Source: Nocardia ninae NBRC 108245
GTDB taxonomy: Bacteria; Actinomycetota; Actinomycetes; Mycobacteriales; Mycobacteriaceae
NCBI RefSeq assembly: GCF_007990755.1
Contig: NZ_BJXA01000001.1
Span: forward strand, 248,001-312,000
Direction: 5' to 3'
DNA: 64,000 nucleotides
The notes below the pieces were generated by a model that saw only the letters and a list, made by a program, of their open reading frames with translations, had not been told where the DNA came from and did no database searches. Made by a program: the position numbers and the translations under genes. Shown in pieces: positions 421-63,085 of the stretch (positions within the stretch are counted from its first letter, which is position 1; every line of letters begins with the position of its first letter).

Positions 421-770
421 CTCACTGCGGGCCGCCAACGGGACATCACGACGGGTTCACTCTTCTTTCCGCGCAGCCATGCCCCGTTCGAGCTCGGATC
501 AGGTCCCGAACGGGGCACGACGGCGGCTGACTCGTGTTCCAGCGCGCCACCGTCGGGCTCGACATTCGAGTTGCGTGCAGCAGGCGGCCAACGGGGAGTC
601 GCGCTGGATGCAGCGTGCAGCCGGCGGACAACCCCGACCACACTCGGCCTGAACCGCCCAACGGGACATCACGACGCGCTAACTCGGCTTTCGGCACCAC
701 CGTGTCCCCGTGAGATGGCCAGACCCGCTCAGCCCCGGCTGCCAACGGGACACGAGGGCGAGCTCACTCG
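421..770. repeat. Intergenic repeat family, degenerate copies (array 1)
   Basis: Several diverged copies of an element found elsewhere in this window. The recognisable parts are CCAACGGGACATCACGACG followed about 6 nt later by ACTCG, then a CCATGCCCCGTTC-type half. The GGGACAT and ATGTCCC-like words form an inverted pair around each unit. No gene is supported between positions 1 and 827; apart from this array and the heptamer tract nothing else is visible there. Confidence 0.7.
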
Positions 771-778
771 CCCATGGA

Positions 779-816
779 CCGAGTCCCGTCCGACGATCAC
801 GTCGGACGGGACTCGG
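779..816. terminator. Hairpin terminator downstream of the P1B-4 ATPase gene
   Basis: A perfect 16-bp stem (arms 779-794 and 801-816, beginning CCGAGTCCCGTCC) closes a 6-nt loop, GATCAC. It sits 11 nt beyond the stop of the minus-strand ATPase gene. There is no clear U tract, as is common for actinobacterial terminators. Confidence 0.75.
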
Positions 817-827
817 CGTACGGGGGT

Positions 828-2849
828 CTATGTGGTGGGGCGGGGCTCGTGGGTGATGCCTTCGTGCTCGGCGCCGCGGGCGAAGCGTAGGAGGCGTAGG
901 GCGTTGGCGACTACGAGGAGGGTGGAGCCTTCGTGGATGAAGACGGCTGGGCCGATGGGGAGTCCGAGGAGGGTGGCGGGGACGAGGGCTAGGACTATCA
1001 GGAGGGAGAAGGTCAGGTTTTGGCGGATGATGCGGGCGGTGCGGCGGCTCAGGGCTACGGCGAAGGGGAGGCGCCCGATGTCATCGACCATCAGCGCGAT
1101 GTCGGCGGTCTCCAGCGCGACGGCGGAACCGCTTGCGCCCATGGCGATGCCGACCGAGGCGTTGACCATGGCGGGGGCGTCGTTGACGCCGTCACCGACC
1201 ATGGCGGTGCCGTTGCGGCCGCCTAGCTTGCCGATCATGGTGACCTTGTCTTCGGGCAGCAGTCCGCCGTGTGCGGCGTTCAGACCCATGCCCGCGGCGA
1301 CGGCGTCGGCGACGCGCTGGTTGTCGCCGGAGATGAGAACGATGTCGTCGATGCCGAGTTCGCGCAGTCGAGCGACCACCGGTGCTGCTTCGGCGCGGGG
1401 AATATCCATCACGCCGACGACACCCAAGTACACACCCGCGTGCCGGACGATCATCGTGGTGCGTCCGCGCTCGTGTAGCTCGTCGACGGTTCGGACGATC
1501 TCGCTCGGCACGCCCTCGGGGTCCAACTCGAAGAACATGGTGCGGTTGCCGACCTCGGTGGTGTGGCCGTCGACCAGGGCGGTGATGCCGCGTCCGGTCA
1601 CCGAATTCACGGAGGTCGTGGTTCGTTCGGTGCCCGCGGGCACCAGTAGCGCGAGATCACGGGTGATGGCGCCGGCGAGCGGATGGTCACTGTAGGACTC
1701 GACCGCGAACAGCGTGCTGATCAGTTCGTCGCGCAGTTCCGGACGGGCCGGGACGATGTCGGTGACCTTCGGCTGACCCCAGGTGAGGGTGCCGGTCTTG
1801 TCGAACGCCATCGACCGCACCCGGCCGAGGGTCTCCAGGGGACCACCGCCCTTGGCGAGGACTCCGGCCTGCGCGGCGCGGGCGATTCCGGCCAGTACCG
1901 CGCTCGGCGTCGCGATCGCCAGCGCACAGGGACTGGCCGCCACCAGTACCACCATGGCGCGATAGAAGCTGTCGGCGAACGGCTCTGCCGCAGCGAACAC
2001 CCCGAAGGCCAGCACGCCGAGCACTCCGGCGAGCACAACGGGCACGTAGAACAATTGGAATCGGTCGATGAACCGCTGCGTCGGCGACTTCTGGGTGTCG
2101 GCCTCACGCACCATCGTGATGACCCTGGCGAGCATGCTGTCCCCGGCGCGGCTGGTCACGAGGACGTCCATCGCCCCGGCGCCGTTCATCGTGCCTGCGA
2201 ACACTCGATGCGATTCCGGCACAGCAGTGCCATTCGCCAGCGCGGCTGCGGCGTCGGCGATCGGCGCCTTCTCCACCGGAATACTCTCACCGGTCACCGA
2301 CGACTCGTCGACGCTGCTCACACCGTCGACCACTACACCGTCTGCGGCGAGCCGCGAATTCGGCAGCACAACAACCACATCACCGATCGCGAGGTCGTTC
2401 ACCTCGACTTCACGCACCACCCCGTCGGGAGCACGCACGAGCGCGGTCGCCGGGGCGAGTTCGGCGAGTGCCTCGATCGAACGCTGTGCGCGCCCCATCG
2501 CATACTCCTCGAGCGCGTGCCCAAGGCTGAACAGGAACAGCAGTACTGATCCTTCTGCCCACTTGCCGACCATGGCCGCACCCACCGCCGCGACCAGCAT
2601 CAGGAAGTCGACCTCGAACCGGCCGCGGCGCACGGTGGATACCGCGGTGCGGATGGTGAAGTAGCCGCCGAAGAAGTAGGTCGCCGCGAACAACGCGATC
2701 GCCACCCACTCCGGCGCGGACACCAGATACTTCGCCGTCATGCCGCCGGCATAGGTCACGCCGGAGGCGATCGCGAAGATCAGTTCCGACCGCTCCCCCA
2801 ACAACGCGGCGCCATGGCCGTGTTCGCTTGCTCGTCCCTCTGCGCTCAT
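828..2849 (-). CDS. P1B-4 heavy-metal transporting P-type ATPase (CtpD/CtpJ/CoaT type)
   Basis: A 673-residue membrane ATPase that probably exports a divalent metal such as Co2+ or Fe2+. Visible in order: transmembrane helices from about residue 25, the actuator TGES motif (SSVTGESIPV), the transmembrane metal motif SPC (AASPCALAIATP), the phosphorylation site DKTGTLTWG, the HP dipeptide in SDHPLAGAI and the hinge GDGVNDAPAM. SPC instead of CPC, together with the absence of any N-terminal CxxC domain, is the hallmark of subgroup P1B-4 (mycobacterial CtpD and CtpJ). The length is close to the family norm of about 660 residues. A palindrome just upstream resembles an ArsR/SmtB-type operator, so metal-responsive control is likely. 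The exact metal cannot be read from the sequence. Confidence 0.92.
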   Translation of the reverse strand: MSAEGRASEHGHGAALLGERSELIFAIASGVTYAGGMTAKYLVSAPEWVAIALFAATYFFGGYFTIRTAVSTVRRGRFEVDFLMLVAAVGAAMVGKWAEGSVLLFLFSLGHALEEYAMGRAQRSIEALAELAPATALVRAPDGVVREVEVNDLAIGDVVVVLPNSRLAADGVVVDGVSSVDESSVTGESIPVEKAPIADAAAALANGTAVPESHRVFAGTMNGAGAMDVLVTSRAGDSMLARVITMVREADTQKSPTQRFIDRFQLFYVPVVLAGVLGVLAFGVFAAAEPFADSFYRAMVVLVAASPCALAIATPSAVLAGIARAAQAGVLAKGGGPLETLGRVRSMAFDKTGTLTWGQPKVTDIVPARPELRDELISTLFAVESYSDHPLAGAITRDLALLVPAGTERTTTSVNSVTGRGITALVDGHTTEVGNRTMFFELDPEGVPSEIVRTVDELHERGRTTMIVRHAGVYLGVVGVMDIPRAEAAPVVARLRELGIDDIVLISGDNQRVADAVAAGMGLNAAHGGLLPEDKVTMIGKLGGRNGTAMVGDGVNDAPAMVNASVGIAMGASGSAVALETADIALMVDDIGRLPFAVALSRRTARIIRQNLTFSLLIVLALVPATLLGLPIGPAVFIHEGSTLLVVANALRLLRFARGAEHEGITHEPRPTT

Positions 2850-2859
2850 GCGTCCATCA

Positions 2860-2885
2860 TATGCATAGATCGCTATGTGTGCATA
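2860..2885. promoter_or_regulatory. Putative ArsR/SmtB-type operator upstream of the P1B-4 ATPase
   Basis: A perfect inverted repeat CATAG-ATCG-CTATG (2864-2877) is embedded in TATGCATAG...TGTGCATAG, giving both an inverted and a direct repeat of GCATAG. It starts 11-15 nt upstream of the ATPase ATG. Metal-sensing ArsR/SmtB repressors commonly control P1B-4 ATPases from AT-rich palindromes of this kind. No adjacent regulator gene is present, so the cognate protein is unknown. Confidence 0.5.
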
Positions 2886-3382
2886 GGTCAGACCTACCGA
2901 TGATGCTTACGCTGGGCGTCGGGCGGCACACGCGAGCTGCCGCATCGCGCCGCCTGCCATGTCCCGTCCGTCTCGACATCCCTGAGCCTCCGATCAAGGC
3001 GCCCGCCGCTTCGCCACCGTCCCGACCGGTGATGTCACCGCCGCCCGCAGCGAGCCGCCACGTCCACGCGGGTAGGTCGGCACCCCACTGCGCCGGGCAC
3101 TGCTCCGATGCCGAGCCGCACCCTTACGGATCGAGAAGATCCTTACTACTCCGACTCGACCGCGTCGGCATGTGTCACGACCGCGACGCAGATTGGCAGC
3201 CTCGACGTAATTGGCAGCCTTTCCGCACGTGGCAGTACATCCCCGAAATCCGAGACACGCCAACGCCTCCCCCGACCGACAACGCACCGACCTCGCACTC
3301 CCCCGATGTACACCAGGCATCACTCGAATGGATACCGCTCCGCCAGACAGCGTTCGAACGCCGTGACCTAGCATCGCGACCT
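2886..3382. other. Gene-free interval
   Basis: About 500 bp between the divergent ATPase and nuclease-fold genes. Open frames here have no recognisable protein features; beyond the operator-like palindrome at its left end I see no further structure. Confidence 0.5.
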
Positions 3383-4096
3383 GTGATCACCGTTGCTACG
3401 TGGAACGTTCTCCACCGCATCCACGCCGAGAACTGGTACGAGGACGTCTCCACTCGGTGGCCGGACGAGGCGGCGCGCATCGACGCGGTCACCGCGCACG
3501 TGACGGCGCGGACCGAGCAGGTCATCGCCTTGCAGGAGGTCAGCGGTGACCAATTGATCAGCCTGCGGGCCGCGTTGCCCGACCGGACGATCCACGCCAT
3601 GCAGTATCCGCGGGTGCCCACCGCCCGCCGGCACGCCAGCGCGCTACGCGATCCGAGCGAGCACCTGGTGCTCATCGTCGAGGGGCCGAGCCGGGAGATC
3701 GCCGCCGAGTCATTCGCCGACGACGGCGGCAAAGGCCTGCTGGCGATCAGCGCGGGCGGCGCGGTGGTCATCGCGACACACGTCAGCGGCGATCGGCGAC
3801 GGGTGAAGCAGCTCGCCCGGCTGGCCGAAGTGGCTTCCGCCACACCGGAATACGCGGCCGTGCTGCTCGGGGATTTCAATGTCGACCGCGAGACCGTCGC
3901 GGCGAGCCTCGGCGAGGGGTTCACTATCGCCGATCCGCCGGCGGACGCGCTGCCGACGCGGCCGCGTACCTCAGGGGCGAAGTCGCAGTTCATCGATCAC
4001 GTCGTCGTGCGTGACGCGACGTTGCGTGAGGTGGTGGTCGAGGACTCCGGTGGCTTGTCCGACCACAATCTCGTGCGCGCGGCAATCGCGTTGTGA
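3383..4096 (+). CDS. Endonuclease/exonuclease/phosphatase (EEP) superfamily protein
   Basis: A metal-dependent phosphodiesterase fold of about 237 residues. The family's motifs appear in order: TWNVLH at residues 5-10, ALQEV (the metal-binding Glu) near residue 50, LLGDFNVDR near residue 165 and the catalytic SDHNLV near the C-terminus. The frame is open far upstream, but homology begins at VITVATWNV, so the GTG at 3383 was chosen. There is no signal peptide, so a cytosolic enzyme is likely. The substrate may be nucleic acid, a phosphoinositide-like lipid or another phosphodiester, and the sequence does not settle this. Confidence 0.85.
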   Translation: MITVATWNVLHRIHAENWYEDVSTRWPDEAARIDAVTAHVTARTEQVIALQEVSGDQLISLRAALPDRTIHAMQYPRVPTARRHASALRDPSEHLVLIVEGPSREIAAESFADDGGKGLLAISAGGAVVIATHVSGDRRRVKQLARLAEVASATPEYAAVLLGDFNVDRETVAASLGEGFTIADPPADALPTRPRTSGAKSQFIDHVVVRDATLREVVVEDSGGLSDHNLVRAAIAL

Positions 4097-4328
4097 CGTC
4101 ACGGTATTCGTAGTCGCAGGTGGGGCACACCGGGGCCGGTGCGCCAACCCCGCGATTCTGGTGTCTGCTGTCCGTCGCGACCGGCGATTAGGGTTCTGCG
4201 GGTTGCCGATTCGGCATCTGGAGGCGGCGGGAGGGAACATGATGACGCGACTTCACGCGGCGCAGCCTTGCCCGGCCCGTCACTCCAGCGGTCGTTCCGC
4301 CGATCGGATCGGGGTACCAGGAGAAGCC

Positions 4329-4949
4329 ATGTCCCGCACAGGACTCGCGCACTTACCCGCCCAGAAGCCCTCAGCGGCAATGTTATTCGCACTTGCGGCG
4401 ATGATTCTGGTGCTCGCCGGGTGTTCGTCGGTTGACCAACCCACTGCCACGAGAACGCCTTTGCCCAGTGCCACGACGACACCGGCGCCGACCAGCGGAC
4501 CGCTCACGCCCACCCGATCAGCTCCATCACCTGGACAAACAGCACCCCCGCAGGCCGCCGCTGCACCTCAGGGGCCGACCCCCGACTACGTCGAGTGCAC
4601 CGACCGCGTCGACTACACCGGCGACCCACGCGCCAATGCCGAAATCAACACCATCGGCGAACAAACCGGCACCTGCCCCGAACCACAGGCCCCCGCCGAC
4701 AACTACGTCGAGTGCACCGACCGCGTCGACTACACCGGTGACCCACGCGCCAATGCCGAAATCAACACCATCGGCGAACAAACCGGCACCTGCCCCGAAC
4801 CACAACGTCCCACCCCGACCCCCGTCACAACCTCGGAGACACCGACCGTCACCACGTCGAGCACACCGCCCGTGACGACCTCGAATTCCCCAGAGCCCAC
4901 CCCGTCGACAACCCCGGCAACGTCCACCGTCACCCCGCCGACGTCGTGA
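4329..4949 (+). CDS. Putative lipoprotein with two near-identical 39-residue modules
   Basis: A protein of about 206 residues with a hydrophobic signal peptide ending in the lipobox LAGC (LVLAGCSSVD), so probably a lipid-anchored cell-envelope protein. The ATG at 4329 follows a good ribosome binding site, AGGAGAAG. After a Pro/Thr-rich linker come two modules, each containing YVECTDRVDYTGDPRANAE and a second Cys in GTCPEPQ, then a Pro/Thr/Ser-rich tail. Each module has two Cys that could form a disulfide. The two copies are almost identical at DNA level, pointing to a recent duplication. The function is unknown. Confidence 0.75.
   Translation: MSRTGLAHLPAQKPSAAMLFALAAMILVLAGCSSVDQPTATRTPLPSATTTPAPTSGPLTPTRSAPSPGQTAPPQAAAAPQGPTPDYVECTDRVDYTGDPRANAEINTIGEQTGTCPEPQAPADNYVECTDRVDYTGDPRANAEINTIGEQTGTCPEPQRPTPTPVTTSETPTVTTSSTPPVTTSNSPEPTPSTTPATSTVTPPTS
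4583..4806 (+). repeat. 117-bp tandem duplication inside the lipoprotein gene
   Basis: Two copies offset by exactly 117 bp (39 codons), starting at TACGTCGAGTGCACC at 4587 and 4704. They differ by very few bases over about 100 bp, while the linkers on either side differ more. The in-frame period keeps the protein intact. Confidence 0.9.
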
Positions 4950-5064
4950 TCACGGCGAGCGCCGGAGTCCGTCCGCCATGCCAACATTCGCTGCCAGAAC
5001 AGGCGACGACGGCAGTTGGCGCGATTCCCCTGCCATCGATGTCCGTCGGACCGAGAATGCTCGT

Positions 5065-5907
5065 ATGGTCGAGATCAGCCGCGGGGTAGCCACCGTCAAT
5101 GGCATTCACATGCACTACCGCCGGGCGGGCTCGGGCCCCGCGCTGGTGTTGCTGCACGGCTGGCCGCAGACCGGCTACTGCTGGCGCAAGGTGCTGCCCG
5201 CGCTGGCCGAGCGCCACACCGTCATCGCCCCCGACCTGCGCGGTTACGGCTACACCGACAAACCGACCACCGGCTACGACAAACGCAGCATGGCCGCCGA
5301 TGTGGCCGCGCTGATCGAATCGCTGGGATTCACCTCGGCCGCCGTCATCGGGCACGACCGCGGCGCGCGAGTGGCCCACCGCTGGGCGCTGGACCGGCCG
5401 GACCAGGTCAGCAAGCTCGTCGTGCTCGACATCATTCCCACCAGGGAGACCTGGCGCCGGATGGACGCCGCACTCGGTCGCCGGTACTTCCACTGGTTGT
5501 TCCACTTGCAGCCGGATCTGCCGGAACGTCTTGTCGGCCATGATATTCCCGGATACCTGCGCTACTTCTTCGAGACCTGGACGGTCAACCGGCACGGTCT
5601 GCCCGGCGAAGCCATCGACGAATACATCCGCGCCTTCAGCACACCCGGGGCATTGCGGGCGGGCTTCGATGATTACCGCGCCGCCGACCTCGACAACGAA
5701 CACGACAACACCGATGCGGGGCATCTGCTCACCATGCCGGTGCTCGCCCTCTGGGGCGCGGCCAGTTTCCTCGAAGAGATTCCAGCCCTGGAGATTTGGC
5801 GTGACTATGCCGAGACTGTGCGGGGCGCGGCTATTCCTGAGTGCGGGCATTTCATCGCCGAGGAACGACCGGAAGCATTACTGGCGCATCTGGACGAATT
5901 CCTCTGA
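5065..5907 (+). CDS. Alpha/beta hydrolase, epoxide hydrolase / haloacid dehalogenase type
   Basis: A soluble hydrolase of about 280 residues. Visible motifs are the oxyanion-hole HGWPQT, DLRGYGYTDKP, the nucleophile elbow GHDRGARV with Asp as nucleophile, and the catalytic His in PECGHFIAEERPE near the C-terminus. An Asp nucleophile with HGxP is typical of soluble epoxide hydrolases and fluoroacetate dehalogenases. The ATG at 5065 (MVEISRGVATVNG) starts where family homology begins; an in-frame ATG at 4978 would add 29 unfamiliar residues. The substrate is unknown. Confidence 0.85.
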   Translation: MVEISRGVATVNGIHMHYRRAGSGPALVLLHGWPQTGYCWRKVLPALAERHTVIAPDLRGYGYTDKPTTGYDKRSMAADVAALIESLGFTSAAVIGHDRGARVAHRWALDRPDQVSKLVVLDIIPTRETWRRMDAALGRRYFHWLFHLQPDLPERLVGHDIPGYLRYFFETWTVNRHGLPGEAIDEYIRAFSTPGALRAGFDDYRAADLDNEHDNTDAGHLLTMPVLALWGAASFLEEIPALEIWRDYAETVRGAAIPECGHFIAEERPEALLAHLDEFL

Positions 5908-6160
5908 GGTGCTGCATTCGAGTAACGCGGCATGCCTGCCCTGTCGGCTGGGCAATCGACTGCCCAGCTGACATCGGCAGCGCTGACGACATCTGGCAGG
6001 AGAGGCATGCGCAGCACTGCCGTGGTTGCGCTTCACCCAAGATCTGATCACGGAACGATTATCAAGCCGCGTAGAGACCGACCAGTCTGAAAGGATCGGA
6101 TCGACTCCACCGAAATACCTGCACGTGACCTGGTACATCCCCCGCAATGAAGGGTGCGAA

Positions 6161-6871: not shown

Positions 6872-6960
6872 ACGCCCGGGCCGGGTGGCAGCTGACACGA
6901 ATCACCGGGTTGGGACAAACCGGTGCGATCCGGACCTACGACCGGAAGTAGTATGGCGCG

Positions 6961-18441: not shown

Positions 18442-18530
18442 AGGTGACGCGGCATGGGTCGAGTGATCGCAGGCAGAGCCGACCACACAGCTCCGCGATC
18501 CGCACGAATCCAGCTGATACCGGCTCTACG

Positions 18531-18612
18531 ATGTCCCCATCCGAGGCGGTACTCATGGTCGACGGGACATCGCGGCGGCCTTACTCGCGAATGCCGCCAT
18601 CTCATGTCCCGT
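18531..18612. repeat. Intergenic repeat family, single unit plus half (array 2)
   Basis: Contains ATGTCCC at 18531, then CGACGGGACATCGCGGCGG, TTACTCGCG and again CATGTCCCGTCG at 18603, i.e. a 73-bp period. It is the same element as in the arrays at 421, 32610, 46757 and 61745. Confidence 0.75.
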
Positions 18613-27434: not shown

Positions 27435-30400
27435 TCAGTGGAGCGCGGGGTGCTGCTCGGTGGTCTCGCGTGCGGACGCACTCGATGCTTGTCTCGGAAG
27501 GCGAAGCCGTTTGAGCGACAGCGCATTCAGAGCGACGATGATGCTGGATCCCGACATCGACATGGCGGCGATCTCGGGCCGCAGCGTGAAGCCGAACGCG
27601 GGAACGAACACGCCTGCGGCGATGGGCAGCGCGATGGTGTTGTAACCGACTGCCCAGGCCAGGTTTTGGTGCATCTTGCGCAGCGTGCCCCGTCCGATCC
27701 GCAGGGCGGTCGGTACGTCGAGCGGGTCGGAGCGCATCAGGACCAGGTCGGCGGTTTCGATGGCGACATCTGTTCCGGCGCCGATAGCGATACCGAGATC
27801 GGCACCCGCCAACGCGGGAGCATCGTTGACGCCGTCCCCGACCATCGCGACTTTCCGTCCATCACGTTGCAGCTCAGCGACTTTCGCGGCCTTGTCCTTC
27901 GGCAGGACCTCCGCGATCACGGTGTCGATACCGAGGTCGGCGGCGATGCGTTCGGCGGTCGCGCGATTGTCACCGGTCAGCATCACCACCTCGACACCCA
28001 GGTCGTGCAGCTCAGCGACCGCGGCCGCGGAGGTTTCGCGGGGTGCGTCGGCAAGGGCGATGACAGCGCTCGCCGTGCCGTCGATCGCGGCGAGGACCGC
28101 GGTATGTCCCGAGTCTGTCAGCCGATCACGTTCCGAGGCGAGCGATCCGATGTCGATACCTTCACGGTCGAACAACCGGCGGTTGCCGACCACTACCCGA
28201 TGTCCGTCCACCTCGGCGACGGCGCCGTGACCCGGAACATTCTCGAACTTGCCCGCGGTCTCCATTGCGACGCTGCGGATTTCGGCGTGCCGGACGATCG
28301 CCGCGGCAAGCGGATGTTCGGATTCACGCTCGACGGCGGCGACCAGCCGCAACACCTGCTCGGCTGAATACCCTTCGGCGGTAACTACATCGGCGACTTC
28401 GGGCTCGCCCTTGGTCAGGGTGCCGGTCTTGTCCATCACCACCGTTCGGATGCGCGCCGCGGACTCCAGCGCCAGCGCATTCTTGAACAGCACACCACGT
28501 TTCGCGCCGAGGCCGGTGCCGACCATGATCGCGGTGGGAGTGGCGAGGCCCAGGGCGTCAGGGCAGGTGATCACCACGACAGTGATCGCGAACAGCATCG
28601 CCTTCGCGAAGGACGCACCGACGAGCAGCCACACCGTGAACGTCAATGCGCCGCCGAACACGGCGACCAGTACCAGCCAGAACGCCGCGCGGTCCGCGAG
28701 TTTTTGCCCCGGCGCCTTCGAATTCTGTGCCTGCTGAACCAGTTCCACGATCTGCGCCAGCGCGGTGTCGGCGCCGACCTTGGTCGCGCGGACTCGCAAC
28801 GTGCCGTTCGTGTTCAACGACGCACCGATCACCGTCGAACCCGACTCCTTGTGGACCGGCATACTTTCGCCGGTCACCATCGACTCGTCGACCTCGCTGT
28901 CGCCCTCCTCGACCACGCCGTCGACGGCGATCTTCGCGCCGGGCCGCACCAGCAGCAGGTCACCGACCACCACCTCGGCGGTAGGCACCTCGACCGGCAC
29001 GCCGTCGCGGATCACCTCCGCCTTGGGCGGCGCCAGATCCAGCAGTGCGCGGATGGCGTCGTTGGCCCCGCCGCGCGCCCGCATCTCGAACCAATGACCG
29101 AGCAGCACAAAGGTTGCCAGCATCGTCGAGGCCTCATAGAACACCTCACCGCCGCCGGTCAGCGTGATCGCCAGCGAATACAGCCAGCCCGCCCCGATCC
29201 CCACCGCGACCAACACCATCATGTCCAACGTCCGCGCACGCAACGCCGCCACCGCGCCGGTGAAGAAGATCGCCGACGAATAGAAGATCACCGGCAAGCT
29301 CAACACCAGCGCCCAAATATCCTGCCGCACCCCGAACGGCACCGGCAGATGCCACCCGAACATCTCGGTAGCCATCGGCGACCACAGCATCACCAGTACG
29401 GAGAACACGGCCGCGACAACGAACCGGTTTCGCATATCGGCGGCCATGTCCGCCATGGACATTCCGCCGTGTCCGCCGTGTCCGCCGTGATCGCCGTGAT
29501 CGCCGTGATCAGCCTGCTCTTGACCGCCTCGGTCGCCAGTGTCGGTGTGGCCGCCAGTGTTTCCCTGGACCGCCCGCCCACGACCAGCGTGCCCATCATG
29601 GTCGGCGTGCCCATCATGGTCGGCATGGTCGGCATGGTCGGCATGGTCGGCATGGTCGGCATGGTCGGCATGCGCGAGTTGGTCAGCGCTGCCAACCAGC
29701 TCGCCGAGACCAGCCACCCTGCGCTCGCCGTGCCCATCATGGTCGGCGCCGTCGGTGCGGTCGGCGCGGTCGGCACCGTCGGTGCGGTCAACGCGGTCTG
29801 CGCGGTCTGCGCGCGCAACGCGGTCAACGGAGTCAGCGGAGTCAGCGTGGTCGCGGTCGCTCCAGTCGGCACGATCGGCATCCTCGCCGCGCTCGGTGCG
29901 GTCGGCGCTCTCGGTGCGGGCGGCACCATCGGCGCGTCCGCTGTGGTCAGCACGGCTCACGCTAGCGCCGTCGTCGACGCAGTCGGCTTGCCCAGCGCGA
30001 TCGCCGCCGCCGGCAATGCCGCCGTTCTCGCCGTGTCGGCGATCGGCATCCCCTACTTGCCCGCCGAGGTCGGCACGGCCAGCGCGCTCATGCTGTTCGA
30101 CGTCATGAGCGCGCCTGCCACGATCAACACGATCGCCGTGCGTATCGCCGACCTCCTGCGCGGCGTAGCCAGGCGTAGCACCGGCGGAGCTCCCCACGTC
30201 ACCGCGCGCGTCCGGTTCGAGCATCGGGTCGCAGATGTGGGTGGGGACCGAGCGGCCTGCGCAGTGGTATCCGCACTCGCGGATCCAGTCGGCGAGCTCG
30301 GCGACCGAGGTGCGGGTGGGGTCGTAGGAGACGGTGGCGGTTTGGGCGGTGGGGTTGGCGGCCACGTCGAGCACGCCTGGTCTGCGGCGGAGTACGGCGG

Positions 30401-30479
30401 TGACGACGTTGGCCTGGCTGGCCCAGCGGACGCCGCGCACGTCGAGAACTGCGGTGCGGCGGTGCGTGTCGTGGTTCAC
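27435..30479 (-). CDS. Copper-type P1B ATPase with His/Asp-rich N-terminal extension
   Basis: About 1014 residues, well above the usual 700-800. In order: a heavy-metal-associated-like fold at residues 10-65 (VLDVRGVRWASQANVV...GVLDVAANPTAQTATVSYDP) in which both Cys of GMTCxxC are replaced by Trp and Gln; a roughly 250-residue low-complexity linker of RADR/DRTDGAD and HAD repeats ending in GDHGDHGGHGGHGGM; eight membrane helices; TGES; the membrane motif TCPDALGLATP, i.e. CPD rather than CPC or CPH; DKTGTLTKGEP; SEHPLA; GDGVNDAP. The GTG at 30479 lies 8 nt after GAGGAG; a GTG three codons upstream overlaps that site. A CsoR-like operator 75 bp upstream predicts copper induction. Confidence 0.9.
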   Translation of the reverse strand: MNHDTHRRTAVLDVRGVRWASQANVVTAVLRRRPGVLDVAANPTAQTATVSYDPTRTSVAELADWIRECGYHCAGRSVPTHICDPMLEPDARGDVGSSAGATPGYAAQEVGDTHGDRVDRGRRAHDVEQHERAGRADLGGQVGDADRRHGENGGIAGGGDRAGQADCVDDGASVSRADHSGRADGAARTESADRTERGEDADRADWSDRDHADSADSVDRVARADRADRVDRTDGADRADRTDGADHDGHGERRVAGLGELVGSADQLAHADHADHADHADHADHADHDGHADHDGHAGRGRAVQGNTGGHTDTGDRGGQEQADHGDHGDHGGHGGHGGMSMADMAADMRNRFVVAAVFSVLVMLWSPMATEMFGWHLPVPFGVRQDIWALVLSLPVIFYSSAIFFTGAVAALRARTLDMMVLVAVGIGAGWLYSLAITLTGGGEVFYEASTMLATFVLLGHWFEMRARGGANDAIRALLDLAPPKAEVIRDGVPVEVPTAEVVVGDLLLVRPGAKIAVDGVVEEGDSEVDESMVTGESMPVHKESGSTVIGASLNTNGTLRVRATKVGADTALAQIVELVQQAQNSKAPGQKLADRAAFWLVLVAVFGGALTFTVWLLVGASFAKAMLFAITVVVITCPDALGLATPTAIMVGTGLGAKRGVLFKNALALESAARIRTVVMDKTGTLTKGEPEVADVVTAEGYSAEQVLRLVAAVERESEHPLAAAIVRHAEIRSVAMETAGKFENVPGHGAVAEVDGHRVVVGNRRLFDREGIDIGSLASERDRLTDSGHTAVLAAIDGTASAVIALADAPRETSAAAVAELHDLGVEVVMLTGDNRATAERIAADLGIDTVIAEVLPKDKAAKVAELQRDGRKVAMVGDGVNDAPALAGADLGIAIGAGTDVAIETADLVLMRSDPLDVPTALRIGRGTLRKMHQNLAWAVGYNTIALPIAAGVFVPAFGFTLRPEIAAMSMSGSSIIVALNALSLKRLRLPRQASSASARETTEQHPALH
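29616..29669. repeat. 9-bp repeat ATGGTCGGC, six exact copies, within the ATPase gene
   Basis: Six contiguous copies, with two diverged copies nearby at 29577-29615. On the coding (minus) strand each unit encodes His-Ala-Asp, producing a run of metal-ligand residues. Being in frame, changes in copy number would lengthen or shorten the linker without breaking the gene. Confidence 0.95.
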
Positions 30480-30553
30480 GTAGCTCACTCCTCGTTCGCA
30501 GAGCTCGGCTCGATGGGACGAGCCGAGGCGTGCGGTTGACCCATCCGACCATA

Positions 30554-32609: not shown

Positions 32610-33300
32610 ACGATCGGTCGCCGAACGGGACCAACCGCACTGTCGCGCCACCACGTCCCACCCAGCAGACCAGCAACCACCCAACGGGACACCACGGCGA
32701 AACCACCCGCACGTTCACGCCACCACGTCCCACCCAGCAGACCAGCAACCACCCAACGGGACACCACAGCGGAACCACCCGCACGTTCACGCCACCACGT
32801 CCCCTTCGGTGAACGGGCATGCTGAGGCGGCGGTGACCAGGCGGCCGCTGCGTGTCCATGGCGCTCTCGCATCGACCGCACCACGGCGGGACCCCCGCGC
32901 ATTTTCCCGCCAGTATGTCCCGTACGGCGCACCACCCGGGTTGAGGTGCTGCCCGGGGGACATGACGGCGGCCGTATTCGATGTTCGGCGCCGCATGCCT
33001 CATACGGTGCAGATATTCACCGTTTGCCGCCGGCTACGTCCCATCCGGCTTCGGACGTCCACGTCGGGCTCGTCGACCGGGACATGACGACGTATTCGCC
33101 CAGCGTGACAGCGGACTGCTTCGGAGTTTTCGCCACCATGTCCCGTTCGGCGCATGTGGAATCGTCGAGCGGGACATGACGCAGGGCCTTCTCGACGTCT
33201 GCCGCAACCACGCCCCGTTCGGCGCACGCGAAATCGTTGAACGGGACATGACGGAGGGCCTACTCGCACTTTGCCGCAACCATGTGCCACTCACTGTCAG
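32610..33300. repeat. Intergenic repeat family (array 3)
   Basis: Fills most of the 770-bp gap between FadD and the MBL-fold gene. Two copies near 32650-32780 are almost identical (CACCACGTCCCACCCAGCAG...CCAACGGGACACCAC, period about 74 bp); further copies near 32915, 33030, 33140, 33210 and 33280 carry CCATGTCCCGTTCGGCGCA and GAGCGGGACATGACG. Each unit has an inverted ATGTCCC...GGGACAT pair. No gene is supported here. Confidence 0.8.
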
Positions 33301-46412: not shown

Positions 46413-46756
46413 CTCTCTCTGCGGCACCCGTCCTGCCCGCCACTCACCCATCCGGCCACGCGGCCTCGCCCACTTCGCCCGCCATAACCACCCAGCCACG
46501 CCAGACCGGCCCGGCCGCGCCCGAGCAGCCGTTATCGCACCCGACGCTCGTCGTAGCGGCCGAGGCGCTAGAGATCCGGCCGTAGCGCCACAGCACGCAA
46601 CTCCGCGATCGGCTCGACGCCCGCACGCTCGGCCTGACGCGTCCCCCACCCTGCCGGGGCGGGAGAGCAACGGATCGACCTGCGATCAGCCGCCCCGATT
46701 ACCTGCCGGCCGCCCGGCAGACGCACGCTTCCCGACGCGGCACCAACGCCGCCACC

Positions 46757-47117
46757 ATGTCCCACACGCACCCAACCCGAGCGTCGCGCGGAACATAGCG
46801 GCGGGTCCACTCGACATCTGCCGCCTCCATGTCCCACTCACAACCACCCGAGCATCGAGCGGGACATCGTGGCGGGTCCACTCGACGCGTACCGCCCCCA
46901 TATCCCCACGCACCCCACCCGAGCGTCGTACGGGACATGACCGGCCGGTCTACTCGGCGTTGCCGCCCCCACGTCCCACACGCACCCATCCCGAACGTTG
47001 AGCGGGACATCGTGGCGGGCCTACTCGACTTTCACCGTCCCATGTCCCACACGCAACCAACCCGAGCATCGAGCGGGACATGGTGACAGGTCTATTCGGC
47101 ATCCGCCTCGATGTGCC
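46757..47117. repeat. Intergenic repeat family, regular five-unit array (array 4)
   Basis: ATGTCCC-like words recur at 46757, 46829, 46900, 46971, 47042 and 47111, i.e. periods of 72, 71, 71, 71 and 69 bp. Each unit holds ATGTCCCACACGCACCC, then GAGCGGGACATCGTGGCGGG, CTACTCG and CCGCC. The words ATGTCCC and GGGACAT form an inverted pair about 28 nt apart. It fills most of the gap between hmuV and the DUF2568 gene. Confidence 0.88.
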
Positions 47118-47173
47118 ACTCGACGCTCAGGTTCGTTCCTGAGTCGGGCACCGGCCGGGCAGTGGGGAATGGC

Positions 47174-56732: not shown

Positions 56733-56746
56733 GGGTTGTCCTTTCG

Positions 56747-58108
56747 TCAGCTGTTCAGCAAAAAGTGTTCCAGCACCCGGGTGCCGAATTCGAGCGCCTC
56801 CACCGGAACTCGTTCGTCGACGCCGTGGAACAGCGCGGTGAAGTCCAGTTCCGGCGGCAGCTGCAGCGGCGCGAAGCCGAAGCAACGAATGCCCAAGCGG
56901 GCGAACGCCTTCGCGTCGGTGCCACCCGAGAGCATGTAGGGCACGGTACGGCCCTGCGGGTCGTGGGCGAGGATCGCGTCGTTCATCGCGTCCACCAGGT
57001 GACCATCGAAAGTTGTTTCGTAGGAGTCGAGTTTGGTGATCCACTCCCGTTCGACGTCCGGGCCGATCAGCTCGTCCACCTCCCGTTCGAACGCCGCCTG
57101 CCGGCCGGGCACCACCCGGCAGTCGACGACGGCCTCCGCGGTCTGCGGGATCACGTTGGCCTTGTACCCGGCCTGCAACATGGTCGGGTTCGCCGTATCA
57201 CGCAGCGTCGCACCGATAATGCGGGAGATGGTGCCCAGTTTCGCCAGCTGTCCCTCGATGTCGGGGCTGTCCGGATCGAACTGCAGTCCGGTCTCCTCGG
57301 CGACGGCGGCCAGGAACTCGCTCACCGAATCCGACATCACCACGGGGAACGTGTGTTTGCCCAACCGCGCGACCGCGTCGGCCAGGATGGTGACCGCGTT
57401 GTCCTCGTGCAGGAACGAGCCGTGTCCCGCACGGGCCTTGGCGCGCAACCGCATCCAGCCAAGCCCCTTCTCCGCCGTCTCCACCAGATACAGCCTGCGT
57501 TCGGTGCCGTCCGGGCGCGGCACCGTCAGCGAGAACCCGCCGACCTCCCCGACGGCCTCGGTGATCCCCTCGAACAGGTCGGGCCGGTTGTCCACCAACC
57601 ACTGCGAGCCCCACTTGCCGCCGTTCTCCTCGTCGGCCAGGAAGGCGAACACGATATCGCGCGGCGGCACCGTGCCGTCGAGCTTGAACTGGCGGGCGAT
57701 CGCCAGCATCATCCCGACCATGTCCTTCATGTCGATCGCACCGCGGCCCCACACGTAGCCGTCGCGCACCGCACCGGAGAACGGGTGCACGCTCCAGTCG
57801 GCCGCCTCGGCGGGCACCACGTCCAGGTGCCCGTGCATCATCAGCGCACCGCGGCTGGAGTCCGCGCCGGGCAGCCGTGCGAACACATTCCCGCGCCCGG
57901 GCGCGCCCGACTCCACATACTCGGTCGTATACCCGGCCTGGTGCAGTTGCTCGGCCACCCATTCCGCGCATTCGCGCTCGCCCTTGGTGGTGGCCAGGTC
58001 GCCGGTGTTCGAGGTATCGAACCGGATCAGCGCGCTGACCAGGTCTACCACCTCATCGACCGCGCGAGAGCTGCTGTTGGGGACCGATCCTTCGACAGTT
58101 GTGGACAC
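56747..58108 (-). CDS. M20-family metallopeptidase (ArgE/DapE/CPG2 type)
   Basis: About 453 residues from the GTG at 58108 ([11 protein letters not shown]). Zinc ligands are in [11 protein letters not shown], the bridging Asp in [13 protein letters not shown], the catalytic Glu in [17 protein letters not shown] and a late His in [18 protein letters not shown]. The dimerisation domain is intact. A cytosolic dipeptidase or deacylase is likely. By synteny it is the counterpart of Rv2141c. It shares a unit with the PEBP gene. Confidence 0.92.
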
Positions 58109-58269
58109 GTACCCTTTCCTACCACCTGCCCGGACTCCGGTTTCCCATCCCTCCCACCGCGGCGTACCCGCGCTGGGCCGGGCGACACAGCGTACGGTGC
58201 CGATCGGCCCGGCCGCAGGGTTCAGCATCACGGTGATCGCAACGCCGTAAGTCGCACGGCGGTAACGGA

Positions 58270-58911
58270 TCAAGGCGTGTCGAGCGCCAGCTTCAGTCCG
58301 AGGACGACCAGCACCGAGCCGGTGAGGCCCTCCATCCCGCGCTTGACCGAGGGCCGATCGAACCACGACTTGGTGAACCGGACGCCGCAGATCAGCACCG
58401 TGGACCACAGCACTCCCTCGACGAAGTGGATCAGGGTGAGTGCCGTGCCCATCAGCAGATGCGGCGCGTGCGGTGGGATGAACTGCGGCAGCATCGCGAT
58501 GTAGAACACGCCCACCTTGGGGTTGAGCAGGTTCGACGTCGCACCGCGCGCCCAGGCTCGCAGCACGCTGTCGCTCGCGACGGCGCGGTCGTCGACCTGG
58601 CCGGCACCGAGGTCGCCGGAGCGCAGCAGCGCGACCAGGCTGGTGAGGCCGAGCCAGATCAGATAGATCGCACCGGCGATGCGCAGCACCGTGTACGCCC
58701 ATTGCGAGGTGGTCAGCAACACCGACAGCCCGCACGTCGTCGCGATGCCCCACACCAGCAGTCCACTGCCTACCCCCAGTGCGGTCGCGAACGCGGTGCG
58801 TGTGCCGCGGACGATCGCGGAGCGCAGGACGAGGGCGGTGTCCAGGCCGGGGACCAGGGTCAGGAACCCCGCGACGACGGCGAAGGACACCAGTGCGGTC
58901 CACACGCTCAC
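58270..58911 (-). CDS. LysE/RhtB-family amino-acid exporter
   Basis: 213 residues with about six helices. The N-terminal signature FLTLVPGLDTALVLRSAIVRGTRTAFATALGVGSGLLVWG resembles the PGPxxxxV pattern of RhtB/LysE exporters, with NPKVGVFYIAMLPQF later. It probably exports an amino acid or derivative. It lies 45 bp downstream of the MalY/PatB-like gene on the same strand, so the pair may act together on sulfur amino acids. Confidence 0.9.
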   Translation of the reverse strand: MSVWTALVSFAVVAGFLTLVPGLDTALVLRSAIVRGTRTAFATALGVGSGLLVWGIATTCGLSVLLTTSQWAYTVLRIAGAIYLIWLGLTSLVALLRSGDLGAGQVDDRAVASDSVLRAWARGATSNLLNPKVGVFYIAMLPQFIPPHAPHLLMGTALTLIHFVEGVLWSTVLICGVRFTKSWFDRPSVKRGMEGLTGSVLVVLGLKLALDTP

Positions 58912-58956
58912 TTATTCAACCTATCCGTTGATTACTTTGTGCCCGTGCGGTTTCCG

Positions 58957-60120
58957 TCAGCGATTGAGGTGCTTGTGCACCGCGTCGTTCATGCGGCCGA
59001 GCATATCCGCGAGGACCGGGCGGTAGGTCGCGAAGTTCAGGCGCGCGAATCCCGCACCGCCGGGGCCGAAGTCCGGGCCGGACAGGAGTTTTACCTTCGC
59101 GTGCTCGAGGAAGAAGTCCGCGGGGTCTCGGTCGAGTTCGAGCGCGCGACAGTCGAGCCAGGCCAGGTAGCCCGCGTCGGGGCGGTGGAAACGGATCTCG
59201 GGTCGCAGCGTCTCGGCGACGAGGTCGCGGTTGGCGGTCAGCAGTTCTCGCGTCGCGGCCAGCCATGCGGCACCCTCGCGCCACGCGGTGCAGGTCGCCA
59301 GCACGCTGAGCGCGCTCACCTGTCCGTACAGCTGCGGTGGTTGCGCGTCCAAGGCGGCGCGGACCCGGCTGTCGCCGACGTGGGCGACGCAGCACCGCAG
59401 TCCGGCCAGATTGAAGGCTTTGCTCGCGGAGTTGAGAGTGACTGTGCGTGCGGCGATTTCCGGTCCGAGCGAGGCGAACGGGGTGTGCCTGTGCCGCTCG
59501 TGTACGAGCTCGGAGTGGATCTCGTCGGCGATCACCAAAACGTCGTTGCGGGCGGTGATCTCCGCGATGGCCGTGAGTTCGCCGCGATCGAACACGTGCC
59601 CCGTCGGGTTGTTCGGGTTCACCAGAATCAAGGCGCGGCAGTTGTTGCTGCGGGTCTCCTCGGCCATCCGGTCGATATCGAAGGTCCAGCCGTCGGCCTG
59701 CTCGACCATCGGGATAGGTACCAGGCGTCGTCCCATGAGCTCGATGGTTTGCAGGAACGGCGGATACGCGGGGGTGTGCACGGCGATCGCGTCGCCCGGC
59801 CGGGTCATGAGTTGCAGCACGATCTGCAGCACCTGGATGAGCTCGGTGAAGACGTACACGTCGTCCGGGTCGATCCGGAAGTCGTACTGCTCACGCATGC
59901 GATCAGCGAACGCTTCCTGCAACGGATTTCGATCGGGACGCTCATCCCACGCGGGATAACCGAGGTCGCCGTCCACCGCCTGCCGCAGCGCCGCACGCAC
60001 CGGATCCGGCACCGCGAAGTCCATGTCCGCGATCCACGCGGGCAGCACATCCGCTCCGGCGCGCGCCCATTTGATGCCCACCCGCTGCCGCAGCACGTCG
60101 ATATCGACCAGATCTTCCAT
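58957..60120 (-). CDS. MalY/PatB-family PLP-dependent C-S lyase / aminotransferase
   Basis: About 387 residues from the ATG at 60120. Fold type I aminotransferase signatures: MPAWIADMDFAVP-like start (LPAWIADMDFAVPDPV), the substrate-binding NPNNPTG in ILVNPNNPTGHVF, the PLP Asp in VLVIADEIHSELV and the Schiff-base Lys in LNSASKAFNLAGLRC. The WIADMDF opening and NSASKAFN are typical of MalY/PatB C-S lyases (cystathionine beta-lyase-like). The Lrp gene is divergent and probably controls it. Confidence 0.92.
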   Translation of the reverse strand: MEDLVDIDVLRQRVGIKWARAGADVLPAWIADMDFAVPDPVRAALRQAVDGDLGYPAWDERPDRNPLQEAFADRMREQYDFRIDPDDVYVFTELIQVLQIVLQLMTRPGDAIAVHTPAYPPFLQTIELMGRRLVPIPMVEQADGWTFDIDRMAEETRSNNCRALILVNPNNPTGHVFDRGELTAIAEITARNDVLVIADEIHSELVHERHRHTPFASLGPEIAARTVTLNSASKAFNLAGLRCCVAHVGDSRVRAALDAQPPQLYGQVSALSVLATCTAWREGAAWLAATRELLTANRDLVAETLRPEIRFHRPDAGYLAWLDCRALELDRDPADFFLEHAKVKLLSGPDFGPGGAGFARLNFATYRPVLADMLGRMNDAVHKHLNR

Positions 60121-60155
60121 GAGCTGAACCCTAGAAGGAACGCCGCCGGACGCGA

Positions 60156-60195
60156 TTGACAATTTTCCCACTCTCACGCAAATTTATTGCGTGAG
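60156..60195 (+). promoter_or_regulatory. Promoter and palindromic operator at the lrp start
   Basis: A -35-like TTGACA at 60156-60161 is followed about 18 nt later by an AT-rich -10-like region. A perfect palindrome CTCACGCAA-N5-TTGCGTGAG (60173-60195) overlaps it and the GTG start itself. With such spacing, transcription would begin at or near the GTG, giving a leaderless message. The same site could also repress the divergent lyase gene. Confidence 0.6.
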
Positions 60196-60685
60196 TGCGC
60201 TGCCGTTGGACGATATCGATCACCTACTGCTCGAGCTGGTGCAGGTCGATGCGACGCGGCCGCTGCACGAGCTCGGTGAACGAGTCGGCCTCTCCCCCAG
60301 CGCCGTCCAGCGCAGGCTCACCCGGCTGCGCACCGGCGGGGTGATCACCGCGCAGGTCGCCGTGATCGATCCGCGCACCGTGGGCATGGGTTTGACCACC
60401 GTCGTGCTCGTCGAACTGGCCGAAGACGACGCCGACCACTACCTCGCGTTCTGCGAGCGCATGCTCGCCGAACCGGCCGTGCAGCAGTGCTATTCCGTTG
60501 TGGGACAGTGGGATTACGTCGTGGTCATGATCACCGAGGACCTCGCCGACTACCGCCGGATCTCGAATGAGCTGTTCGTCAGGGACAAGTCGGTGCATCG
60601 CTACGAGACGCTGCCGACCTACGAAAGGGTCAAAGCCCAACTCGCCGTGCCGTTGTCGACGTCGCGCCCAGAGACCAAACTGTAA
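60191..60685 (+). CDS. Lrp/AsnC-family regulator
   Basis: 164 residues from a GTG. HTH at residues 8-60 (LDDIDHLLLELVQVDATRPLHELGERVGLSPSAVQRRLTRLRTGGVI) and a RAM ligand domain after residue 70 (TTVVLVELAEDDADHYLAFCERMLAEPAVQQCYSVVGQWDYVVVMITEDLADYR). Octameric Lrp proteins sense amino acids. Divergent placement from the C-S lyase and LysE exporter genes suggests it responds to a sulfur or other amino acid. It has a perfect palindrome over its own start. Confidence 0.92.
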   Translation: MSALPLDDIDHLLLELVQVDATRPLHELGERVGLSPSAVQRRLTRLRTGGVITAQVAVIDPRTVGMGLTTVVLVELAEDDADHYLAFCERMLAEPAVQQCYSVVGQWDYVVVMITEDLADYRRISNELFVRDKSVHRYETLPTYERVKAQLAVPLSTSRPETKL

Positions 60686-60797
60686 TGGGCTTCACAGGAA
60701 CTGCACGGCAAACCGTTGCCGACTGCACGGATTAGCGCGCTTTACTGGAAGAGTGCCGAGCGGCACGCGGCAAGGGTGCAGTCCGAGGAGGTCAGGC

Positions 60798-61571
60798 ATG
60801 TGCTCGGCACCTGTCACGGACGGCCCCGATCCCGAAGTCGTGCGCCTCAGCGGTACCGCATGGGAGTCGTTGAGCAGGCGCGGTTCCCGCACCCTCAACG
60901 CCGACGACGCGGCCGCCGTGATCGATCCGGTCACCGGGAAGACAGCGTTCGTGGTCGCCGACGGTGTCGGTGATCATTTGCCCGCCGCTCGGGCGGCACG
61001 CACTGCGGCGGACGTCGCCGCGCACGTCGGCGCCCGTACCGGCGCGTTCGCCGGAATCCTTGCGGCCCAACGCGAATTACTGCGGCAGTTCCCACAAAAC
61101 GAAGCCGACAGTGTGCTCGTCATCGCCGTGCTGCCGTCTCCGGGACAACCGGACGGGCCGTGCGAAGTCGCCTGGGTCGGCGACTGCCGCGCCTATCGCT
61201 GGAACGGGCGGGTGCTGCACCAGATCACCACCGATCACACCGTCGGCGAATTCTGGCGCACCCGCGGTTACGGTCCGGCACCGCGACTGGATCACGTGGT
61301 CCTCACCTCGGTCCGCACCGTCCGGCCCGCCGACATCGGTCACGCGAGCACCGGCTCCAGTACCGGCAGGCTGCTGCTGAGCACCGATGGTGTGCACAAG
61401 CGCCTCGACATGGCCGCGATCAAAGCGATGCTCGCCGAAGGGGAATCACCTGCCCACGTCGCGGAAACTCTGGTGGACAACGCCCTTCGCAGCGGCGGTA
61501 CCGACAACACCACCGCCCTCGTCGCCGATTGCGGACCTTTCCTCGAGCGAACCAGTGACGACACCGAGTAA
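60798..61571 (+). CDS. PP2C-family serine/threonine phosphatase
   Basis: About 257 residues from the ATG at 60798, with GAGGAGG 7 nt upstream. The PPM metal motifs are in order: FVVADGVGDHLPAA (the DG Asp), WVGDCRAYRW, LLLSTDGVHKRLD and GGTDNTTALVAD. Metal-ligand Asps are present, so it should be active. It has no membrane or regulatory domain. It may counter a Ser/Thr kinase encoded elsewhere. A repeat array follows its stop. Confidence 0.9.
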   Translation: MCSAPVTDGPDPEVVRLSGTAWESLSRRGSRTLNADDAAAVIDPVTGKTAFVVADGVGDHLPAARAARTAADVAAHVGARTGAFAGILAAQRELLRQFPQNEADSVLVIAVLPSPGQPDGPCEVAWVGDCRAYRWNGRVLHQITTDHTVGEFWRTRGYGPAPRLDHVVLTSVRTVRPADIGHASTGSSTGRLLLSTDGVHKRLDMAAIKAMLAEGESPAHVAETLVDNALRSGGTDNTTALVADCGPFLERTSDDTE

Positions 61572-61744
61572 GTGACGGCTGCCGGCTTCGAATGCGCGAC
61601 CGCCGTAGCGGTGCGCAGCTGGTTCAGCATCGACGGGACTGGCAGCAAAGTCGAAAGGCCCGCCGTGTACTCGAGGGCAGCACCTGTCCGATATCCGGCG
61701 AGGTTGCCACCGTAGCCCGCCGGCACAGGTGTTCTCCGCCACTG

Positions 61745-63085
61745 CGTCCCGCCCGCCGCCCGACTCCGCGCCGAGCGGGAGATGGTGGCGCCTCCACTCG
61801 CACGTCTCCGCCACGGCGTCCCTCTCGCCGCCGGACTCCGCTCTGAGCGGGACATGGTGGCGCCTCCACTCGCACGCCTCCGCCACGGCGTCCCTCTCGC
61901 CGCCGGACTCTGCGCCGAGCGGGAGATGGTGGCGGACTTACTCCGGCGATGCGTGACCTCTGTTCCGTTGATACTGAAGTGCGCAGCCACCGCCCGTGCA
62001 AGGGCGGCGCCACCATCTCCCGCCCGGCGAGGAAGGCAGGCGACGGGCGGAACACAGTGGCGGACCGTGCGAGCGGGGGCGCCACCACGTCCCGCCCGGC
62101 GCAGGGTCGGCGGCAAGAGGGACGCAGTGGCGGAGACGTGCGAGTGGGAGCGCCGTCATGTCCCGCTCAGCGCGGACTCGGGCAGCGCGCGGGACACGAT
62201 GGCGGAGGCATGCAAGTGGAGGAGCCATCACGTCCCACTCGGCGCGGAGTCGGGCGGCGGACGGGACGCAGTGGCGGAGAAGTGCAAGCGGGGGCGCCAC
62301 CATCTTTCGCTCTGGGGGGAGGCAGGCGAGGTGGCGGACCGTGCAAGTGGTTGGGCGCCACCACGTCCCGCCCGGCGCAGGGTCGGGCAGCGGGAGGGAC
62401 ACAGTGGCGAAGAAGTATGAGTGGGAACGCCTTCATGTCCCGCTCAGCGCGGACTCGGGCAGCGCGCGGGACACGATGGCGAAGACGTGCGAGTGGAGGC
62501 GCCACCATGTCCCCCTCGGCGCGGAGCTCAGCGGCGGCAAACGTACGAATCGGAGCGCCACCAAGTCCCACCCGACGCCGAGCCGCGCGGCCAGCGGAAC
62601 ATGGTGGCGGAGACATACGAGAGGGGGCGCCCTCACGTCCCGCCCGGCGAGGAGCCAAGCGGGCAGCGGGACACAGCGGCGGAAACGTACGAGTCGAAGC
62701 GCCACCAAGTCCCACCCGACGCCGAGCCGCGCGGCCAGCGGAACATGGTGGCGGAGACATACGAGCGGGAGCGCCCTCACGTCCCACCCCACGCCGAGCC
62801 GCGCGGCGCGCGGAACATGGTGGCGGAGACGGACGAGCGGGAGCGCCCTCATGTCGCACCCGGCGCCGAGCCGAGCGGCGCGCAGGACCGCAGCGGCGGA
62901 GGCATACGAGTGAGAGCGCCACCACGTCCCGCCCGGCAAGGAGCCAAGCGGCCAGCGGGACACAGCGGCGGAAACGTACGAGTCGGAGCGCCACCAAGTC
63001 CCACCCGACGCCGTGCCGGGCCGTAAGCGGGACACGGGGGCGGAGAAGCGTTTGTGGGCGTGCCTTCATGTCCCTCGATCATGAA
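61745..63085. repeat. Intergenic repeat family, largest array of about 18 units (array 5)
   Basis: A 1.3-kb run of 72-bp units. On the left (61745-61935) units read GAGCGGGACATGGTGGCG, CCTCCACTCGCAC, CCGCCACGGCGTCCC with starts at 61773, 61845 and 61917. To the right they run in the opposite sense: ATGTCCC-like words at 62158, 62230, 62363, 62435, 62507 and 62635, mostly 72 bp apart with some units of 56-61 bp. The 72-bp period equals 24 codons, so long open frames arise by chance. No gene is supported from 61572 to 63379; the remaining 290 bp are plain. Confidence 0.88.

Follow-up and report, generated by a model that had tools for sequence, protein, structure and literature searches.

A REP/BIME-like, Nocardia-restricted family of extragenic palindromes with in-place array growth and helix-stepped spacing

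The analysed window, a 64,000-nucleotide stretch of the Nocardia ninae NBRC 108245 genome, carries several groups of a short repeat among ordinary genes. The genes flanking these groups encode a P-type ATPase, a TetR regulator, a hydrolase, an AMP-binding enzyme, an MBL-fold protein, an ABC ATPase and an MMPL protein, among others. Two conserved arms are distinguished in the repeat, B (CGGGACATGAYGGCG) and A (CGCCRCCATGTCCCG). The initial annotation had reported five arrays, and sequence inspection together with a model search (R1, below) identified the repeat at all five places. They are given here in window positions.

Array 1, 383..773, + strand: three clear units and one weak unit, with linkers (ATGTCCC to GGGACAT) that include 36 and 38 bp.
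Array 2, 18517..18612, + strand: one unit (18517-18590) and a following A arm, making one outward B-A element.
Array 3, 32639..33289, + strand: six units (32639-33266) and a last A arm, lying between convergent genes.
Array 4, 46743..47118, + strand: five units (46743-47101) and a last A arm.
Array 5, first part, 61730..61947, + strand: three units.
Array 5, second part, 61996..63049, - strand: 14 units, with an arm-like stretch continuing to ~63075.

Array 5 thus totals 17 units at 61730-63049. R1 is a structure-plus-sequence model built from 26 window units, and the scores of the window units (down to E ~3e-19) are for that reason not independent of it, the search of the own genome being the independent one. 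A loose scan of the window for the inverted pair returned 59 matches, with both strand readings counted, compared with 5, 16, 8, 13 and 9 in five order-1 resamplings.

The repeat had been described as lying always outside genes, and this was borne out. Called genes were overlapped by none of 26 arrays from 21 sources in the own genome and by none of 38 arrays from 35 stretches of N. suismassiliense, as judged with a simple codon-usage gene caller made for this analysis. The single unit at 18517 was below the threshold of the array-overlap scan and sits between two called genes. Coding sequence was rejected on the basis of these counts (0/26 and 0/38), no tested array overlapping a called gene. 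A tRNA identity was also rejected, and known Rfam RNAs gave no match at the gathering threshold within the window. Other tandem repeats were present in the window. Beside Array 1, at 114-250, the 7-bp word CCACTCG is perfectly repeated in tandem (x 19.6), and this word includes the ACTCG of the element. A 117-bp unit is repeated 1.9 times at 99% identity within a reading frame (4585-4804), and several 9-, 18- and 27-bp tandem repeats (29465-29936) lie within a long called gene (27435-30488).

The conserved core of the element is an outward pair, GGGACAT...ATGTCCC, around the ACTCG spacer, measuring 33 bp from start to start. The element as a whole is an imperfect palindrome of ~62 bp, comprising two inverted half-sites of ~20 bp and an asymmetric, ACTCG-bearing spacer of near-fixed length; its approximate sequence, assembled by eye, is CGCCGARCGGGACATGACGGCGGGCCYACTCGCACTTTCGCCGCCGCCATGTCCCGYTCGGCG. 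The B-to-A spacing was 33 bp (±1) in 113/126 cases in N. ninae, 204/230 in N. suismassiliense and 88/91 in N. iowensis, and rare spacings of 22-23 were also present. The initial annotation was right about the repeat, but its unit, ATGTCCC...GGGACAT, did not stand, since the near-constant pair is the outward one and the A-to-B pair represents a variable linker joining adjacent elements. Its period of 71-73 bp is present but not the sole one, periods near 82 and 92 occurring as well. Isolated two-arm clusters were of the B-A type in 15 of 18, with spacings of 21-34 bp. Cluster ends in general were mixed (56 B..A, 45 A..A, 32 A..B and 26 B..B; n = 159, pairs included), and because the ends of longer clusters are mixed, the B-A framing rests on the fixed spacing and the single elements. 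Four elements (window 33234-33297, L106:9014-9078, L129:96-160 and L199:468-532), some of them at array ends, had an outer A arm of ATGTGCC or GTGTGCC in place of ATGTCCC, with the B arm changed to match in three of the four.

The initial annotation had been staked on the existence of further copies in the genome, and many were found. A search of the own genome (9.7 Mb, 204 contigs) with R1 matched 149 of 150 scored candidates on 27 contigs, the window and both strand readings included, which is no exact copy number because both readings were counted and only 150 candidates were scored. Among 150 Nocardia genomes R1 matched 10, and multiple matches were confined to five: N. ninae, N. suismassiliense S-137 (G134), N. 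colli CICC 11023 (G080), N. iowensis DSM 45197 (G094) and G065. A sequence-only model of the B-A element (R2), built from 78 units of those five genomes, matched 57 of the 150, at least 20 matches being returned in 17 of them when 35 candidates were scored per genome and both strands counted. The N. iowensis genome contained 96 loci, mostly single elements. Across 298 genomes of the order, matches were found in 28: N. ninae had 19, one other Nocardia had 12, and the remaining 26 had no more than two each, with E 2.3e-5 as the best value, which is the noise level. The repeat family was not found outside Nocardia in this order-wide search. An exact-pattern search of a genome collection, from which the own genome may be left out, returned 20 stretches (13 from N. 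suismassiliense, four from N. colli and three from unrelated organisms). Viral contigs held no match for one exact pattern, and the plasmid and phage collections none for two window arrays used as queries. We are highly confident that this is a real, genus-wide family of extragenic palindromes.

As far as the literature searched shows, the family is undescribed. No paper was found whose title or abstract describes the repeat, most subscription papers being outside reach. The N. iowensis genome paper contains no word beginning with 'repeat', and in the N. suismassiliense paper (PMC5908941) repeats come up only as 'two repeat regions'.

The distance from A to B across the linker has a mode of 39 bp, with few values below 38 or above 66 bp. 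Among the 86 such distances of 41-66 bp collected from four species, 65 measured 48-50 bp, eight measured 59-60 bp and 13 had other lengths (42-47, 51-55 and 41). The longer spacings therefore fall at 48-50 or 59-60 bp in 73/86, a step of ~10 bp or about one helix turn. The 49-bp class was present at five N. ninae and 10 N. suismassiliense loci, and spacings of 49-50 bp at seven N. iowensis loci. The classes other than 39 were not built in, because training of the arm profiles used 39-spaced units exclusively; as units within an array are related, the spacing counts overstate their independence, and shared old ancestry or an old subfamily could add to the ~10-bp pattern. In N. iowensis the linker at the qcrB site exceeds that of N. 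colli by 11 bp, and the arms align. Mean linker identity was 0.46-0.52 within arrays and 0.34 between arrays, against 0.286 for random sequence. Within-array linkers are therefore more alike, as the initial annotation had it, although 'homogeneous' is too strong a word. Between arrays, the centre of the linker is at about random identity, and the B arm, whose position was set solely from the A arm, is conserved. Palindromic linkers were not supported, as only the N. colli 39 class of 10 groups reached 9/200 shuffles. Eight N. iowensis linkers of the 49 class had a mean folding z of -1.31, compared with -0.14 for control stretches.

The position of the elements relative to genes was counted in 70 N. 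iowensis stretches that had been selected as element-bearing. The gaps with elements (n = 75) comprised 39 convergent, 25 tandem and 11 divergent gaps, and the other gaps (n = 181) comprised 21, 96 and 64, respectively. Convergent gaps were thus enriched for elements (39/75 vs 21/181, p 3e-11) and divergent gaps depleted of them (11/75 vs 64/181, p 8e-4). Elements adjoining a 3' end lay within 25 bp of the stop codon in 43/67, where random placement in those gaps would give 43% (Mann-Whitney p 0.05). The N. suismassiliense arrays (n = 38) were in 18 convergent, 17 tandem and three divergent gaps, and 41/304 gaps were convergent in a sample of that chromosome. In N. ninae, 11/25 arrays were convergent.

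The array-bearing species are N. ninae, N. suismassiliense and N. colli, and many of their array sites are shared. Nineteen of 21 own-genome sources could be aligned with array stretches of N. suismassiliense (identity mostly 87-97%), the sites being in common and the copy numbers different; 7/13 N. colli stretches aligned to array stretches of N. ninae or N. suismassiliense, mostly at 80-92%. The counterpart place of Array 2 in N. suismassiliense is ~4 bp instead of ~142. Sixteen N. iowensis sites were bracketed in the fetched stretches, 10 of which carry arrays there. Six of these 10 have one element in N. iowensis (L259, which was bracketed less cleanly than the others, L260 at 935, L261, L268, L289 and L296), and four have two or three (L131, L185, L297 and L308). 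The same 10 sites hold 8-39 arms in N. ninae or N. suismassiliense, N. suismassiliense itself having four arms at L308. They include the window arrays at 32639 and 46743, the counterparts of which in N. iowensis are one element (Array 3) and two elements (Array 4). The remaining six bracketed sites were loosely bracketed (L310, L315), single in both species (L260 at 2499) or without a target array (L132, L305, L307). The local amplification proposed in the initial annotation is supported by these 10 orthologous sites, although no rate of array growth follows from them because the target stretches were chosen for holding arrays. The single-element state looks ancestral, since the other Nocardia genomes picked up by R2 yield next to no matches with R1.

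Neighbouring elements in N. iowensis were below the 95th percentile of random-pair likeness in 11 of 12 pairs, and most neighbours are therefore not recent duplicates. One pair that is 84% alike and another with a matching flank have the look of a duplication. The empty-site comparison was limited to few sites, which were too diverged, and gave no clean junction. A 36-bp tandem repeat x 2.3 was observed at a called gene's 3' end, next to one N. iowensis element pair (L128:8385-8465).

Between the sister species N. ninae and N. suismassiliense, in the 12 stretches that passed the filters from 22 ortholog pairs tried, changes were seen at 75/728 arm sites, 37/313 spacer sites, 34/295 linker sites and 233/3292 flank sites. 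The GGG triplet alone looks slower (5/155 sites changed). Clear purifying selection on array units was thus not detected in these 12 stretches, and the arrays may be surplus copies, with any function residing in single elements.

In N. suismassiliense, where dnaA lies at 0.40 Mb of a 9.12-Mb scaffold, all R1 matches (148 of the 150 candidates scored) fall within 2.29-7.37 Mb. When this chromosome was sampled in 20-kb stretches, 20 of them from the origin half contained no array and one borderline match, and 20 from the other half, mostly away from the known arrays, contained two arrays; the intergenic space was similar in both samples (59 and 63 kb, counting gaps of at least 100 bp). The idea that the family is tied to the replication terminus was weakened by arrays in N. 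colli at 0.29 and 0.68 Mb from dnaA, where the origin-distal pattern is not shared, by a strong N. suismassiliense match at 1.65 Mb in the R2 search, by 37/96 N. iowensis loci in the origin half (p 0.03), and by a scaffold that was finished partly by synteny (PMC5908941). The origin-distal clustering in N. suismassiliense is read as history.

For the inverted arms the initial annotation had offered two possibilities, a hairpin or a site for a dimeric protein, and the covariation tests lean towards the protein and away from the hairpin, without proof. In 150 N. suismassiliense matches, some of them reverse readings, the A-B arms formed standard pairs in 78.4% of cells, compared with 78.9% after shuffling. 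No excess of B-A arm pairing over all pairs was detected in the three array species (98, 169 and 114 elements) under either strand's wobble rule. Partial signals were seen in the outer arms of N. suismassiliense (6/1000 shuffles) and the core of N. colli (14/1000), while pairing in the N. suismassiliense mid arms was below all 1000 shuffles. The mutual information across 397 elements showed no overall mirror excess, mirror pairs making up three of the top 40. A conserved stem in the array species was thus not supported, with partial exceptions in the outer and core arms, and a short hairpin inside each arm was rejected. The 79 N. iowensis elements showed strong outer-arm and slight mid-arm covariation. 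Two symmetric subfamilies mainly account for the outer-arm signal: the TGATC form was matched on both sides in 20 elements and the CGxCG form in 30, with one clear hybrid and the rest partial; within the subfamilies the outer arms were at the shuffled level. In the mid arms, 9/2000 shuffles were as high overall and 96-315/2000 within subfamilies. The whole stem of the TGATC group gave 60/2000, and slid controls at -3 and +3 were also slightly above their shuffles. Symmetry between the arms of a subfamily, combined with largely independent variation among its members, would suit two half-sites read by one protein, and a stem would be compatible with it too. On these sequence patterns the analysis favours two half-sites read by a putative dimeric DNA-binding protein over a hairpin.

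We tentatively propose, as a reading that may well prove wrong, that the element is a double-stranded site for a putative homodimeric DNA-binding protein. Each element would be bound by a sequence-specific homodimer, with one subunit per arm, and neighbouring elements would be bound on one helix face, such that whole-turn spacings are kept or made. Array growth would follow through slippage in place or unequal exchange, leaving surplus units under loose constraint. At gene ends, the likely effect would be a boundary coated with protein, curbing transcriptional read-through or collision at convergent pairs. The stepped spacing, the linker shift at qcrB, the free linkers, the arms with no pairing excess, the symmetric subfamilies and the convergent enrichment were counted in support. 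The lack of clear purifying selection on arrays, some pairing signals, the relatedness of units and a step possibly due to old ancestry were counted against. It is possible, if somewhat doubtful, that the solitary element instead acts as RNA, as a bidirectional hairpin terminator or a stabiliser of mRNA 3' ends often shared by convergent genes, the arrays being redundant and needing no pairing. The closeness of N. iowensis elements to stop codons and their strong convergent enrichment suit such a role, as do the stable hairpins into which solitary elements fold (12 folds of eight chosen elements, -34.6 to -57.1 kcal/mol, z -1.9 to -10.2), the arm covariation of the whole N. iowensis set, and a symmetric GGCACAT/ATGTGCC core in 5/9 elements read from other species. 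However, the covariation falls to the shuffled level in the outer arms, and to only weakly above it in the mid arms, within subfamilies, and arm pairing in the array species is no more than chance overall. Furthermore, the arms are conserved in sequence as well, beyond the needs of a terminator, and no U-run was seen by eye in the elements read from other species and the folded solitary elements.

A third explanation, which we consider unlikely, is a non-autonomous mobile palindrome or its relic (MITE- or REP-like), both ends of which are read by an enzyme that favours sites beside elements already present, in a fixed helical phase, with selection doing no more than removing harmful copies. 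This would account for the many dispersed copies, for the symmetric subfamilies (as expected of ends read by one enzyme), for N. iowensis neighbours that are mostly not alike and yet mostly keep the stepped spacing, and for arrays with no clear selection. Against it, RAYT (PF01797) was found in 0/8 Nocardia genomes, the few sites compared included no clean empty site, the sites are often common to several species, and the viral, plasmid and phage collections had no match for the queries used; the two N. iowensis pairs noted above also have the look of duplication.

If this account is right, an undescribed repeat family is present in a large genus of soil bacteria and opportunists, with ~100 loci in one complete genome. 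With a given gene pair holding anything from a single site to a long array, depending on the sister species, the family would offer a natural series on the origin of tandem arrays and the role of repeated sites at gene ends. The ~10-bp steps would point, in a way open to direct testing, to a missing DNA-binding protein or, alternatively, to copying or insertion that proceeds by measuring helical turns. Close species differ in array length, a trait that may be of use for typing.

Among known systems, the MIRU of the related genus Mycobacterium are intergenic tandem repeats of similar unit length and variable copy number; the likeness is one of description, and the order-wide search returned no such family outside Nocardia. 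In alpha-satellite DNA with its CENP-B boxes and in the plasmid centromere sopC, tandem monomers keep a protein site while the rest diverges. This is an analogy only, as the Nocardia protein is putative and the Nocardia arrays sit at dozens of gene ends. A bolder and rather improbable reading is that of bacterial satellite-like DNA, in which, at gene ends numbering in the dozens, a lone palindromic protein site would have expanded into arrays, largely independently, the monomers keeping the site, losing the rest and staying whole turns apart, and a dedicated putative Nocardia protein would coat one helix face and organise gene ends or the chromosome.

The REP and BIME are short extragenic palindromes in many copies, mostly in convergent or unidirectional gaps and sometimes in tandem (PMC3733652). 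The Nocardia element is similarly a multi-copy extragenic palindrome that prefers convergent and unidirectional gaps and avoids divergent ones. REPs measure 20-40 bp and carry GTAG or CGTC tags (PMC3733652), whereas the Nocardia element is ~62 bp with an ACTCG spacer and has neither tag at an end of its consensus; the text of that source does not contain 'Nocardia', 'actinobacteria' or 'Mycobacterium'. REPINs have two inverted conserved words and a spacer as their unit, and in P. fluorescens regular tandem arrays have 72 and 112 bp between REPs (PMC3116915). The Nocardia element shares the inverted words, the spacer and the tandem arrays. However, REPINs accompany RAYT transposases, and the Nocardia arms barely covary within subfamilies. 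Identity with REP proper was rejected, as the search for the RAYT domain (Y1_Tnp), whose control run was positive in 5/14 named genomes, found none in the eight Nocardia genomes. The 'lineage-specific counterpart of REP' guessed at in the initial annotation nevertheless holds in that the family is dispersed, extragenic, palindromic, often 3' of genes and numerous only in the searched Nocardia genomes. In sum, the family is REP/BIME-like and restricted to Nocardia, its arrays have grown in place and its spacing steps with the helix.
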